A stretch of DNA of 64,000 bases, taken from positions 2,803,217-2,867,216 of the forward strand of contig NZ_BMKQ01000001.1 in assembly GCF_014644415.1 (NCBI RefSeq), in the 5' to 3' direction. The notes under the pieces were generated by a model. It made no database searches. It had not been told where the DNA came from and was given only the letters and a program-made list of their open reading frames with translations. Both the position numbers and the translations under genes were made by a program. This DNA is from Marmoricola endophyticus. GTDB taxonomy: Bacteria; Actinomycetota; Actinomycetes; Propionibacteriales; Nocardioidaceae. The first letter of the stretch is position 1, and every line of letters starts with the position of its first letter. Of this stretch, positions 8,124 through 15,019 are shown piece by piece.

Positions 8124-8609
8124 ATGACATTCACCGTAGGCGAGACGGTCGTCTATCCCAATCACGGCGCCGCTGTCATCGAGAACATCGAGATGCGAAA
8201 GATCAAGGGGGAGGACACCCAGTACCTCGTCCTACGGATCGTGGCCCAGCAGGACCTGGTCGTCCGGGTCCCCGCGTGCAACCTCGACCTGGTCGGCGTC
8301 CGCGACGTCGTCGACAAGGAGGGCCTGGACCGCGTCTTCGACGTGCTCCGGCTCGCGCAGGTGGAGGAGCCGACCAACTGGTCGCGCCGCTACAAGGCGA
8401 ACCTCGAGAAGCTGCACTCCGGAGACGTGATGAAGGTGGCCGAGGTCGTCCGCGACCTGTGGCGCCGTGAGCGCGACCGCGGGCTGTCCGCCGGTGAGAA
8501 GCGGATGCTGGCCAAGGCGCGCCAGATCCTCGTCTCCGAGCTGGCCCTGGCCGAGAAGACCAACGAGGACAAGGCCGAGACGATGCTCGACGAGGTCCTC
8601 GCCTCCTGA
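8124..8609 (+). CDS. carD: CarD-family RNA polymerase-binding transcription regulator
   Basis: This 161-residue global regulator binds the RNA polymerase beta subunit and the upstream fork of promoter DNA and stabilises open complexes at rRNA and other promoters. The N-terminal Tudor-like RNAP-interaction domain reads [21 protein letters not shown], and the C-terminal helical DNA-binding domain includes [13 protein letters not shown] and [16 protein letters not shown]. Length matches mycobacterial CarD (162). It sits next to ispD and ispF, the conserved actinobacterial order. A strong hairpin terminator follows. Confidence 0.96.
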
Positions 8610-8625
8610 GCACGTCTTGAGCACG

Positions 8626-8662
8626 AGCACGGGCCCCGACCGTCACGGTCGGGGCCCGTGCT
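8626..8662 (+). terminator. Strong hairpin terminator after carD
   Basis: A perfect 17-bp inverted repeat (8626-8642 with 8646-8662) encloses a three-base TCA loop, 16 bases after the carD stop. No T-tract follows, which is usual in high-GC actinobacteria. It separates carD from the leaderless promoter of the next gene. Confidence 0.85.
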
Positions 8663-8668
8663 GCGTCC

Positions 8669-8683
8669 TAGGCTGGCCCGGTG
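8669..8683 (+). promoter_or_regulatory. Leaderless promoter of the IspD-like gene
   Basis: TAGGCT at 8669-8674 is followed by six bases and GTG at 8681. The hexamer begins only seven bases after the carD terminator, so the IspD-like gene appears to have its own promoter. Confidence 0.7.
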
Positions 8684-9277
8684 ACCGACGGGACCTGGTT
8701 GTACGACGAGACCCCCCGGCCGGCCGGGGTCGTACCGGACACCGGGCGCGGGTCGCTGCCCTTCGCGCTCCTCCACGGGGAGTCCCTGGTGGCGTGCGCC
8801 GCCTGGGCGATGGGTGAGGCCGAGGTGGAGCTCGTGGACCTCACCGTGCCGTGGGAGGACGTACGACACTCCGGTCGCCCGCTGGTCGTCCACGACCCCC
8901 TGTGCCCGCTGACCCCGCCCGCGTTCCTCGCCGAGGCGGCCGCGCTGGCCGCCGCGTCGGGCCGCGTCGTGGTGGCCTACCGGCCCGTGACCGACACCGT
9001 CAAGGAGACCGACGGCGACCGCGTGGTCGGCACCCGCGACCGCGAGGGCCTGCGGCAGGTGGTCTCGCCGCTGGTGCTCCCGGCCGACGTGCTCGCTCAG
9101 CTCGCGGCGCCGGCACCCGGCCGGCCCCTGGACCTCGACGACCTGGCCGCCTCCGCGCTCGCGCTCGGGGCGTCGTACGACGTGGAGTGGCTCGAGGCCC
9201 CGACGACCGCGGCCCGGGTCGCCCGGGTCGAGGACGTCGAGCTGCTGGAGAGCCTCAGCGGCGCACCCGGTCGCTGA
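8681..9277 (+). CDS. IspD-like protein lacking the catalytic loop, retaining the beta-arm
   Basis: This 198-residue protein aligns by eye with IspD (CDP-methylerythritol synthase), but only some motifs are kept. Present: LVVHDPLCPL (the IspD HDAARP region, with the Arg replaced by Cys), PVTDTVK and TRDREGLR, which match the dimer-arm motifs PVxDTxK and T-x-DR-x-x-L. Absent: the N-terminal GxGxR nucleotide loop with its Lys, and the C-terminal NxKVT Lys (here ARVARVEDVELL). It therefore looks catalytically incomplete alone. It converges on the canonical ispD and overlaps its 3' end by 23 bases. A leaderless promoter argues that it is expressed. A degenerate duplicate is the alternative. Confidence 0.7.
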   Translation: MTDGTWLYDETPRPAGVVPDTGRGSLPFALLHGESLVACAAWAMGEAEVELVDLTVPWEDVRHSGRPLVVHDPLCPLTPPAFLAEAAALAAASGRVVVAYRPVTDTVKETDGDRVVGTRDREGLRQVVSPLVLPADVLAQLAAPAPGRPLDLDDLAASALALGASYDVEWLEAPTTAARVARVEDVELLESLSGAPGR

Positions 9278-9971
9278 GCAGCCGGTCGGCGACCGCGAGG
9301 TCCTCGGGCCAGGTGACCTTGAGGTTCGTCGGCTCGCCCGGGACGGTGACGACGGTCAGCCCGGAGTAGGAGGCCACCACCGAGGCGGTGTCGGTGCCGA
9401 CGAACCCGCCCGCGGCGGCGGCGTCGTACGCCTGCAGCAGCTCGCGCGCCAGGAACGCCTGAGGGGTCTGCACGCCGACCAGCGCCGGCAGGGTGGTGGT
9501 GCCGTCGGCCGGAACCAGCCCGGGGAGGTCGAGTGCGGGCAGCGCCCCGCCGTGCTCCGCCGCCGCCGCGAGCACGTGCTCCCACAGTGCCGGCGTCGCG
9601 AGCGGGCGGGCGGTGTCGTGGATCGCGACCAGCTCGACCTCGCCGGTCCCCACGTCGGCGCGCAGCACGTCGAGTGCGGCCTTCTCTGAGTGCTGGCGCT
9701 CCGCGCCGCCGTCGACCAGCCAGACGTCCTGGTCGCCGAGGTGCGGGCCGAGCGCCTCGGCCACGTCCGCACGCTCCTCCGCCCGGCAGACGACCACCAG
9801 GCGGTGCACCGAGGCGAGGTCGAGGACGGTGCGTACCGACCAGGCCAGCGCCGGCCAGCCACCGAGGGGGAGCAGCGCCTTGTTCGTCCCGGAGCCGGTA
9901 CGACGCCCGGACCCGCCGGCGAGCAGGACCGCGGCGGCACGCCGGGTGCCGCCGCGGGCTGCCGAGGTCAT
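9255..9971 (-). CDS. ispD: 2-C-methyl-D-erythritol 4-phosphate cytidylyltransferase (IspD)
   Basis: This 238-residue protein is expected to form CDP-methylerythritol from MEP and CTP. It has the nucleotide loop LLAGGSGRRTGSGTNKALLPLGG, HDTARP, QTPQAF and NLKVTWPEDLAVAD, i.e. the loop Arg/Lys, the metal Asp, the MEP-binding Arg and the C-terminal Lys. Oddly, the beta-arm between HDTARP and QTPQ is about seven residues shorter than in E. coli IspD and lacks the PVxDT and T-x-DR motifs; it reads LDLPGLVPADG and TTTLPALV. Those motifs are present in the convergent IspD-like protein. Position near carD and ispF supports the call. Confidence 0.85.
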   Translation of the reverse strand: MTSAARGGTRRAAAVLLAGGSGRRTGSGTNKALLPLGGWPALAWSVRTVLDLASVHRLVVVCRAEERADVAEALGPHLGDQDVWLVDGGAERQHSEKAALDVLRADVGTGEVELVAIHDTARPLATPALWEHVLAAAAEHGGALPALDLPGLVPADGTTTLPALVGVQTPQAFLARELLQAYDAAAAGGFVGTDTASVVASYSGLTVVTVPGEPTNLKVTWPEDLAVADRLLSDRVRR

Positions 9972-12909: not shown

Positions 12910-13383
12910 TCAGCGAGCGGTGACGAGGGCGGTCGCGATCGCGGCGACGCCCTCGCCGCGGCCGGTGAGGCCGAGACCGTCGGTGGTGGTGGCGGTGACG
13001 CTCACCGGGGCGCCGGCCGCGTCCGAGAGCGCGCGTACGGCCTCGTCGCGGCGCGGGCCCAGCCGGGGCACGGTGCCGATCACCTGGACCGCGACGTTGC
13101 CGATCTCGAAGCCGGCCGCACGGACCCGCGACGCGGTCTCGGCGAGCATCATGGTGCCGGCGGCGCCGGCCCACTCGGGGGCGTCGGTGCCGAAGGTGCT
13201 GCCCAGGTCGCCCAGGCCGGCTGCCGAGAGCAGCGCGTCGCAGGCCGCGTGCGCGGCGACGTCGGCGTCGGAGTGGCCCTCGAGCCCGCGGGGCTCCTCC
13301 GGCCAGTCCAGCCCGGCGAGCCGCATCGGGCGGCCCTCGACCAGCCGGTGGACGTCGGTGCCGATCCCCACGCGTGTGCTCAC
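12910..13383 (-). CDS. ispF: 2-C-methyl-D-erythritol 2,4-cyclodiphosphate synthase
   Basis: This 157-residue enzyme, normally trimeric, converts CDP-ME 2-phosphate to MEcPP in the non-mevalonate isoprenoid pathway. It has the metal motif [10 protein letters not shown] (Asp and His ligands), [11 protein letters not shown] with another ligand His, the substrate loop [11 protein letters not shown] and the C-terminal [14 protein letters not shown]. Length is standard. It is not fused to ispD as in some bacteria. The GTG start at 13383 is set by CACAAT seven bases upstream. It is divergent from the Mo-oxidoreductase. Confidence 0.96.
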
Positions 13384-13390
13384 GAGGGCG

Positions 13391-13396
13391 ATTGTG
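13391..13396 (-). promoter_or_regulatory. -10 hexamer for ispF
   Basis: CACAAT on the minus strand lies seven bases before the ispF GTG (13383), supporting a leaderless message and that start codon. Confidence 0.6.
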
Positions 13397-13426
13397 TCCT
13401 CTCTTGGGGCGCGTGTGCCCGCTCGG

Positions 13427-13441
13427 CACACTGGAGGGGTG
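13427..13441 (+). promoter_or_regulatory. -10 hexamer for the Mo-oxidoreductase gene
   Basis: CACACT at 13427-13432 is followed by GGAGGG and then GTG at 13439. The same ACACTGGAGGGGTGA word occurs before tatD at 56703-56717. The GGAGGG is too close to the start to be a normal Shine-Dalgarno sequence, so I read this as a leaderless promoter. Confidence 0.5.
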
Positions 13442-15019
13442 AGCACGTCCCGGCGCGAGCGCCTGCCCCTGGCCGCCGCCGGTGTCGTCACCGGTCTCGC
13501 CGGCCTGGCGGCGAGCCTGCTCGCCGCCGCGCTGCTGCACCTGCCCGGCAACCCGGTCACCGCGGTCGCCTCCGTGGTGCGCGACCTCACCCCCGGCCCG
13601 GTCGCCGAGGCCCTGATCGGGCTCGTCGGTCACGCCGACAAGCCGCTGCTGATCGCCGGTACGACGCTGGTGGTGCTGCTCGTCGCGGGGGCGGCCGGCG
13701 TGCTGCAGGCCCGGTCGGCACCCCTGGCGTACGCCCTGCTCGGGGCGCTCGGTGTCATCGGCTTCATCGCCACCTCGTCCGCGCCGGGCACCGAGACCGG
13801 CGGCGGCACCGGCTCCGGCGGGAGCCCGGCAGCGGCGATCCCGGTCGTCATCGGCTTCGTCGTCTGGGCCCTGGTGCTGCCGATGCTGGTCGGCGTGGCT
13901 CAGCGCTACGTCGAGGTCCGTGCCGCGCCGTCGGCGTCACCGGCCGCCGTCGGCCACTCGCGACGGGTCTTCCTCGAGCGGTCCGCGATCGTCGTGGTGG
14001 GCGCCCTCGTCCTCGGCGGCGCCTCGCGGGCGCTGGCCTCGGGCCGCGACCGGGTCGAGGCGGCTCGGGAGGCCCTCCGGCTGCGCCTCGGCCGGGGTAC
14101 GACTCCGTCGGGCGCCGACCTCGGGGTCGCCGGCCAAGCGTCCTGGCGTACCGCTGACAGCGACTTCTACCTCATCCACACCGCGCTCGCGGTCCCGCAG
14201 GTCGCGCCCGACGACTGGAGCCTGCGCATCCACGGGATGGTCGAGCGCGAGCTGACCATCTCCTTCGCCGAGCTCGCGCGGCGCGAGCGCACCGAGGACT
14301 GGATCACGCTGTGCTGCGTGTCCAACGAGGTCGGCGGGCCGCTGATCGGCAACGCGTACTGGTCCGGGGTGCCGATCCGCAGCCTGCTCGCGGAGGCGGG
14401 CGTGAAGGACGGCGCCGACGCGGTCAAGCAGACCTCCGAGGACGGCTGGACCTGCGGTACCCCGCTGGCGGCCCTCACCGACCCGGACCGCCAGGCGATG
14501 CTTGCGCTGGGGATGAACGGCGAGCCGCTGCCCATCGAGCACGGCTTCCCGGTCCGGATGGTCGTGCCGGGGCTGTACGGCTACGTCTCGGCCACCAAGT
14601 GGCTCGTCGACCTCGAGGTCACCCGGTTCGACGACTTCGCGGCCTACTGGACCGAGCGGGGCTGGGGCGAGAAGGGCCCGGTGAAGACCGAGTCGCGCAT
14701 CGACGTACCGGTCGACGGCGAGGCGGTCGACGCCGGCCGGGTGGCCGTCGCCGGTGTCGCCTGGGCGCAGCACACCGGCATCGACAAGGTCGAGGTCCAG
14801 CTCGACGGCGGGTCCTGGCAGGACGCCCGGCTGGGCACCGTGCCGGGCGTCGACACCTGGGTGCAGTGGGTGCTGGACACCGAGCTCGACGCCGGCGAGC
14901 ACACGGCGGTGGTCCGCGCGACGGACCGCTCGGGATACACGCAGACCGCCGCGCGCGCCGACGTGCTCCCCGACGGGGCCACGGGCTGGCACAGCCGCAC
15001 GTTCACCGTCCAGGGCTGA
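13439..15019 (+). CDS. Membrane-anchored molybdopterin-dependent oxidoreductase (sulfite oxidase family)
   Basis: This 526-residue protein has an N-terminal membrane region of about five helices (up to ~195, with Gly-rich loops), then an extracytoplasmic sulfite-oxidase-type Mo-cofactor domain. The Mo-ligating Cys is in [19 protein letters not shown]. The substrate-domain motif [12 protein letters not shown] and a C-terminal Mo-co dimerisation domain ([19 protein letters not shown]) follow. Family members oxidise sulfite or reduce S- or N-oxides; the actual substrate is unknown. Mo-cofactor genes moeA-moaC-mogA lie ~28 kb away. The GTG start is chosen from the -10 spacing. Confidence 0.9.

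Follow-up and report, generated by a model that had tools for sequence, protein, structure and literature searches.

Two convergent genes in the window analysed here, a stretch of 64,000 nucleotides from Marmoricola endophyticus, encode homologues of the MEP cytidylyltransferase IspD. According to the open reading frames of the window they lie at 8681-9277 on the plus strand and at 9255-9971 on the minus strand, their 3' ends sharing 23 bp. The products are named small (8681-9277) and big (9255-9971) in the following. Each of them has motifs of IspD that the other lacks, and the locus raises the question whether the two chains make up one enzyme. The first-pass annotation of this DNA had proposed exactly this, in the form of an obligate heterodimer, and had named a degenerate duplicate as the simpler alternative.

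In the E. coli IspD structure, the arm residues Thr140 and Arg157 enter the active site of the partner subunit. With an arm acting in trans, a homodimer of big would therefore be devoid of MEP-binding residues and a homodimer of small would be devoid of catalysis, and exactly one complete site would be found in a heterodimer. The E. coli arm is described as comprising residues 137-159, and MEP is said there to bond, as it seems, to Arg157 and Lys213 (PMC11770629). A hydrogen bond of Thr140 to the substrate is reported in PMC3111433, along with a loss of 75% of activity in the T141D mutant of the Francisella enzyme and of all activity in T141E. The arm is further described as forming most of the dimer interface of IspD (PMC5099578).

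We consider it very probable that big and small constitute a single MEP cytidylyltransferase. The enzyme would be an obligate heterodimer in which a single composite active site replaces the two sites of the usual dimer. From the sequences we infer an active complex with a trans-acting arm and with MEP as its substrate. Big would bind CTP and Mg and carry the catalytic lysines, and small would dock at the place of the second IspD subunit, where its beta-arm, bearing the equivalents of Thr140 and Arg157, would enter the site of big and bind MEP.

Two facing genes with complementary IspD motifs

The observation of two convergent IspD homologues with complementary motifs was confirmed. The Pfam family PF01128 matched big over profile positions 2-219 of 221 and small over positions 95-211 only, both above the cut-off of 27 bits (Table 1), and the IspD-family matches of the two chains lie far beyond chance. 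For the NCBIfam equivalog TIGR00453 (cut-off 181.3 bits), 148.6 bits were obtained with big, 33.5 bits with small and 212.5 bits with a canonical relative (L008). Neither chain reaches this cut-off, and the standard IspD equivalog cut-off thus misses both. Big is the sole full-length IspD homologue of the window's genome. The closest solved structure to big is B. subtilis IspD (5ddt, E 1e-24); the solved relatives of small are IspDs of mycobacteria and other organisms, matched over the HD-motif and arm region.

The motif statements of the first-pass annotation proved correct for both chains. Big has the nucleotide loop, HDTARP and NLKVT and is devoid of PVxDT and T-x-DR; small has PVTDTVK and TRDREGLR and is devoid of an intact nucleotide loop, of the Arg of HDAARP and of the C-terminal Lys. 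In the small chain of the window the loop reads GRGSLPF, HDPLCP replaces HDAARP, and an Arg occupies the Lys213 position. The arm of big had been described as about seven residues shorter than that of E. coli IspD, a figure that is true in comparison with canonical relatives, the difference to the E. coli enzyme being nine. The spacing from HDxxRx to xTPQ amounts to 44 residues in big versus 53 in E. coli IspD; the median is 51 (range 51-52) in the canonical IspDs of the family (14/14 measured) and 44 (range 42-61) over 126 big sequences. None of these 126 sequences contains the motif DT[VILM][KRT] in the arm region, and among the least conserved 15-residue windows of big the one at residue 147 ranks 6th of 199.

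Between carD and the small gene, at 8626-8662 of the window, lies a perfect 18-nt inverted repeat with a 1-nt spacer.

Table 1. Positions of genes and motifs in the window.
Feature	Position	Strand	Evidence
carD, upstream of small	8124..8609	+	CarD_C 127.8 bits
small: arm-bearing IspD pseudoenzyme (predicted)	8681..9277	+	198 aa, GTG start; PF01128 38.4 bits
small, eroded nucleotide loop GRGSLPF	8744..8764	+	starts most conserved segment of small
small, HDPLCP (HDAARP in IspD; R109 to Cys)	8891..8908	+	Cys 100%, Asp106 99% of 129 smalls
small, arm strand 1, PVTDTVK (Thr140 equivalent T106)	8984..9004	+	Thr140 98%, Asp139 98%, Lys142 95% of 129 smalls
small, arm strand 2, TRDR (Arg157 equivalent R121)	9032..9043	+	Arg157 98% of 129 smalls
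big: catalytic IspD subunit (predicted) without beta-arm	9255..9971	-	238 aa; PF01128 140.6 bits
big, NLKVT, Lys213 equivalent	9312..9326	-	K213 98%, T215 98% of 126 bigs
big, arm remnant, shortened, poorly conserved	9474..9533	-	T140/R157 lost in alignment; low-conservation window
big, HDTARP, Asp106 and Arg109 equivalents	9603..9620	-	D106, R109 both 100% of 126 bigs
big, nucleotide loop with Arg20 and Lys27 equivalents	9879..9920	-	G16, G18, R20, K27 each 100% of 126 bigs
ispF, co-directional with big and about 2.9 kb upstream	12910..13590	-	PF02542 176.5 bits; TIGR00151 149.2 bits, cut-off 116.45

Complementary residue loss and co-occurrence among relatives

Residues were compared in an alignment of 126 distinct bigs and 129 distinct smalls with E. 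coli IspD and 14 canonical IspDs of the family, using E. coli numbering and counting identical rows once; some genomes may occur twice. Left out were one frame of a split small gene (L142_771_1331_p), the IspD-like protein of L160, whose arm region is longer, and two bigs with untrimmed ORFs (L219, L234); the two-small genomes L272-L274 are outside the 129 small rows. Big has G16, G18, R20, K27, R85, S88, D106, R109 and T165 in 100% and K213 and T215 in 98% of sequences. At its T140 position Leu or Val is found in 99% and Thr in 1%; no big has Arg at the R157 position, where 94% have a gap. Small retains P136, V137, D139, T140, K142, T154, D156 and R157 at 94-98%. No small has Arg at the R20 position (Leu in 95%), K27 is missing from 100%, R109 is replaced by Cys in 100% and K213 by Arg in 99%; retained are Asp106, in 99%, and Gly at the Gly18 position, in 97%. 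The five catalytic residues Arg20, Lys27, Asp106, Arg109 and Lys213 therefore stand together in big, small retaining Asp106 only, and the arm residues Thr140 and Arg157, missing from the big chain, are both present in 98% of smalls. The defining residues of IspD are supplied by the pair jointly and by neither chain alone. The arm pattern was found in 126 of the 129 smalls, the remaining three being armless second small genes. Reciprocal losses are expected of an obligate heterodimer, and the complementary losses claimed for the window are borne out at the E. coli-numbered positions in the 126 bigs and 129 smalls.

The two genes also occur together, as the proposed heterodimer would have it. 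An armless big is present in 74 of 149 family genomes, and an arm-bearing small accompanies it in 74/74 (71 at E <= 1e-12; the weaker matches of G009, G020 and G040 were confirmed by eye). Throughout a sample of 293 genomes of the order, big and small were found in the identical 91 (91/91), counted by gene presence, the arm being inspected in a later subset of loci. This subset comprises 62 loci (L242-L307, some of the genomes already sampled) with 65 small ORFs, of which 63 have the arm and two are armless type-I copies. Family and order combined, the pair occurs in 120 genomes, and small is absent from none of the 120 with big. Among the best 80 of 163 small-relative loci, which belong to Nocardioides, Marmoricola, Nocardioidaceae, one Propionibacteriales and one Actinomycetota bacterium, big shares the locus with small in 78, the other two being at or near a contig end. 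The pair is retained in four genomes (G054, G353, G290, G345) though its genes are 1.8-3.7 kb apart. In one fragmented assembly (G116, 540 contigs) small was found and big was not. Neither gene was matched in five genomes of genus g6 (G099, G260, G264, G273, G339), and G099 has an armed IspD instead, which at 188.7 bits is over the TIGR00453 cut-off. Among the matches listed (E <= 7.7e-38), another full-length IspD-family match was seen by eye in 18 of the 74 pair genomes and in none of the other 56.

Small is under purifying selection. Its median pairwise dN/dS is low, 0.295 (336 pairs), compared to 0.315 for big (491 pairs), as calculated from pairs with dS 0.1-1.5 and enough shared 5-residue words, which are not independent of each other. 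A decaying duplicate, standing beside a big that merely drifted in a non-essential loop, would fit the disappearance of the active site from small and the place of the arm remnant among the least conserved parts of big. The simpler alternative of the first-pass annotation is nevertheless contradicted by the low dN/dS, by the occurrence of the pair in 120 genomes and in several families, and by the conservation of the arm, whose PVTDTVK columns are 86-100% conserved in small; on these grounds it was rejected as having next to no probability. Because of the co-occurrence (74/74 and 91/91) and the complementary residues, the relatives favour complementation over decay. They could have broken the predictions of an obligate heterodimer and did not, and the comparative evidence thus lends support to that proposal.

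In some genomes small is reduced or doubled. The small of G020 has an intact arm in a frame no longer than 141 residues, and the part of it recognised by Pfam, residues 51-106, corresponds to the HD and arm region (profile 101-154). That of G040 is heavily eroded with the arm retained, no Pfam family being recognised in the piece searched; each case is a single genome. Type-I and type-II small genes are found together in six genomes (G033, G117, G132, G293, G297, G327), and in 6/6 the type-I small is armless and the type-II small has the arm, in keeping with the claim that the arm may be lost where two small types coexist. When the arm columns are excluded from the tree, armless small copies fall on at least two separate branches. 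The persistence of armless type-I smalls in six genomes indicates that small probably does more than lend its arm. One draft genome with 4% contamination (G113) has two complete big-small pairs. In G046 (L142), small extends across two frames, with the N-terminal part in one and the arm part in the other, a split that fits a sequencing error and decay alike.

Despite the eroded loop, small is most strongly conserved in the N-terminal segment GRGSLPF...HGESLV (window 8744-8827). The most conserved 24-residue windows begin at residues 22-26, and the window of the arm ranks 27th of 175. The segment is also retained by the type-I small copies without arm. That the arm is not the best conserved part of small, and that armless type-I copies persist, would suit a big acting as a self-sufficient homodimeric IspD without a classical arm, with small as a regulator or assembly factor using its arm otherwise. 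The three genomes outside the family that have an arm-deficient big and no small found nearby point in the same direction. However, the arm Thr and Arg are kept in 98% of smalls while R20, K27, R109 and K213 were lost, small is missing from none of the 120 family and order genomes with big, and the small of G020 is recognisable mainly around the arm. We consider a self-sufficient big unlikely.

Pathway setting and origin of the two chains

A third complete ispD in the genome had been named in the first-pass annotation as refuting its proposal. None was found in the genome of the window, where the sole further PF01128 match is GlmU (680 bits versus a cut-off of 611). IspF is present in 148 of 149 family genomes and DXR in the genome of the window. 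HMG-CoA synthase was matched in 0/149 family genomes, the window's own included, and a mevalonate pathway making IspD dispensable was discarded for this reason. Big and ispF matches lie at most 30 bp apart on the same strand in at least ten genomes (by eye: G124, G098, G140, G082, G120, G111, G142, G122, G095, G067). These data bear on the alternative that the pair is a heterodimeric cytidylyltransferase for a polyol phosphate other than MEP. Big does match the model of ribitol-5-phosphate cytidylyltransferase, albeit with 73.4 bits at a cut-off of 166, it stays below the TIGR00453 cut-off, and carD and ispF were not found beside the pair of family f7 (see below). Against these points stand the presence of IspF and DXR in the window's genome with no match to HMG-CoA synthase and no other IspD, the abutment of big and ispF in at least ten genomes, and the 56 of 74 pair genomes without another full-length IspD-family match among those listed at the E-value given above. 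Another polyol phosphate as substrate thus appears very unlikely, and MEP is retained as the predicted one.

In the trees, the bigs of this and of the other families all group in a single clade (support 97) that excludes the canonical IspDs. The latter are on a common branch with small (96), and small stands in two places, one with the f7 and f46 sequences and one with the rest. An earlier tree of family sequences (big clade 99, small with canonical 89) agrees. A constraint joining big and small in one clade was not rejected (p-AU 0.079), and the placements are provisional because of long branches. Nearest to big in the trees stands an extra IspD-like protein of G030 (L160, E 1.8e-32; not counted as big), in which the arm region is longer and a DR motif is still present.

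Small follows carD, three loci (L331-L333) have an armed ispD flanked by carD and ispF, and in at least ten genomes big abuts ispF. From this arrangement the resident ispD provisionally appears to have turned into the arm donor, with a second IspD taking over catalysis. A second IspD lineage would probably have assumed catalysis beside the resident carD-linked IspD, and each chain would then have shed what only the site of the other chain needed. The resident would have lost catalysis, and the newcomer its arm, since that arm served only the dead site.

Split pairs in other families and likeness to known enzymes

A search of 394 genomes of the class revealed 23 genomes outside the family with a big-like protein at E <= 1e-72, distributed over families f7 (10), f29 (8) and f27, f31, f34, f46 and f48 (one each). 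The arm segment of these bigs, from HDxxRP to QTPQ, measures 42-54 residues, several being near the canonical length; the DT motif occurs in none, and that of L314 still has DR. An arm-bearing small was found close to big in 20/23 (f7 10/10, f29 8/8, f31 and f46). Position 140 is Thr or Ser and position 157 is Arg in all 20 smalls, and none has Lys at 27 or 213; Arg109 is kept in seven and Arg20 in one. The big of L313 was left out of this residue comparison. No arm gene was found near big on the 6.8 kb contig of G391, on the 47 kb contig of G407 and within about 60 kb on either side in G701. A second big-like gene of G407 (L330:2316-3065) is without Lys27, Arg85, Arg109, Lys213 and the arm DT.

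In family f7, carD and ispF were not found in the stretches beside the split pair (L308-L312, L314-L318), and another IspD may therefore exist in these genomes. The ORFs adjoining the pair in L309 and L316 presumably encode Mce-associated proteins.

The first-pass annotation had framed the pair within the Nocardioidaceae. This framing was too narrow, as the split is also present in other families. A confinement to the family, which the order sample had suggested, was overturned by the class-wide search. On a wider reading, which we judge to have an even chance of being right, split IspD would be an ancient alternative form of the enzyme in several families of the class. An armless lineage would have spread that depends on the arm of the resident, and the resident would have decayed to a donor, possibly repeatedly, in places to little but the arm.

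Searches of the open-access full text of PMC, preprints aside, brought up no description of a split IspD. The homodimeric IspDs of known structure (E. coli YgbP 1i52/1ini, B. subtilis 5ddt, M. smegmatis 2xwl) belong to the same sequence family as the pair. Like them, big has the nucleotide loop, Lys27, Asp106, Arg109 and Lys213, and small has the arm motif; whereas both halves are in each chain of the homodimer, here they sit in two genes. A dead paralogue that hetero-oligomerises with a catalytic one and activates it is described for trypanosomatid AdoMetDC-prozyme and deoxyhypusine synthase (PMC5201418, PMC3663545). AdoMetDC is activated by relief of autoinhibition, whereas here the dead chain would donate substrate-binding residues. 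In contrast to the prozyme systems, both chains have lost complementary parts. Small resembles a prozyme-type partner in being apparently a paralogue without catalysis, lacking R20, K27, R109 and K213 and standing among the canonical IspDs in the tree, and in accompanying the catalytic gene (74/74 and 91/91, and 20/23 in other families). The IspDF fusion enzymes, which are named in PMC13001223, catalyse the same reaction in an altered gene architecture, but there IspD itself is unsplit and fused to IspF.

If the proposal is true, one active site of an essential enzyme that is a drug target is divided into complementary halves between the two chains of an obligate heterodimer, and the catalytic gene expressed alone should fail. 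The trans action of the IspD arm would become directly testable by genetics. The pair would also be a natural experiment on the passage from a homomer to an obligate heteromer by reciprocal loss, with examples in several families and with graded stages, the arm subunit being almost complete at one end and, at the other, a remnant identified chiefly by its arm.

TarI (ribitol-5-phosphate cytidylyltransferase) and the cytidylyltransferase-SDR fusions belong to the PF01128 family like the pair, but are separated from big and small by the tree. In this group, a single chain of L025 carries the two arm motifs, and L032, a cytidylyltransferase fused to a short-chain dehydrogenase, keeps DT and an Arg (by eye). 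Eleven family genomes (G131, G127, G008, G125, G021, G141, G037, G018, G001, G005, G013; loci L032, L094-L096, L098-L101, L103-L105) have IspF and, as their sole PF01128 matches, a cytidylyltransferase in a long ORF and an N-terminal GlmU-like match in a second long ORF.
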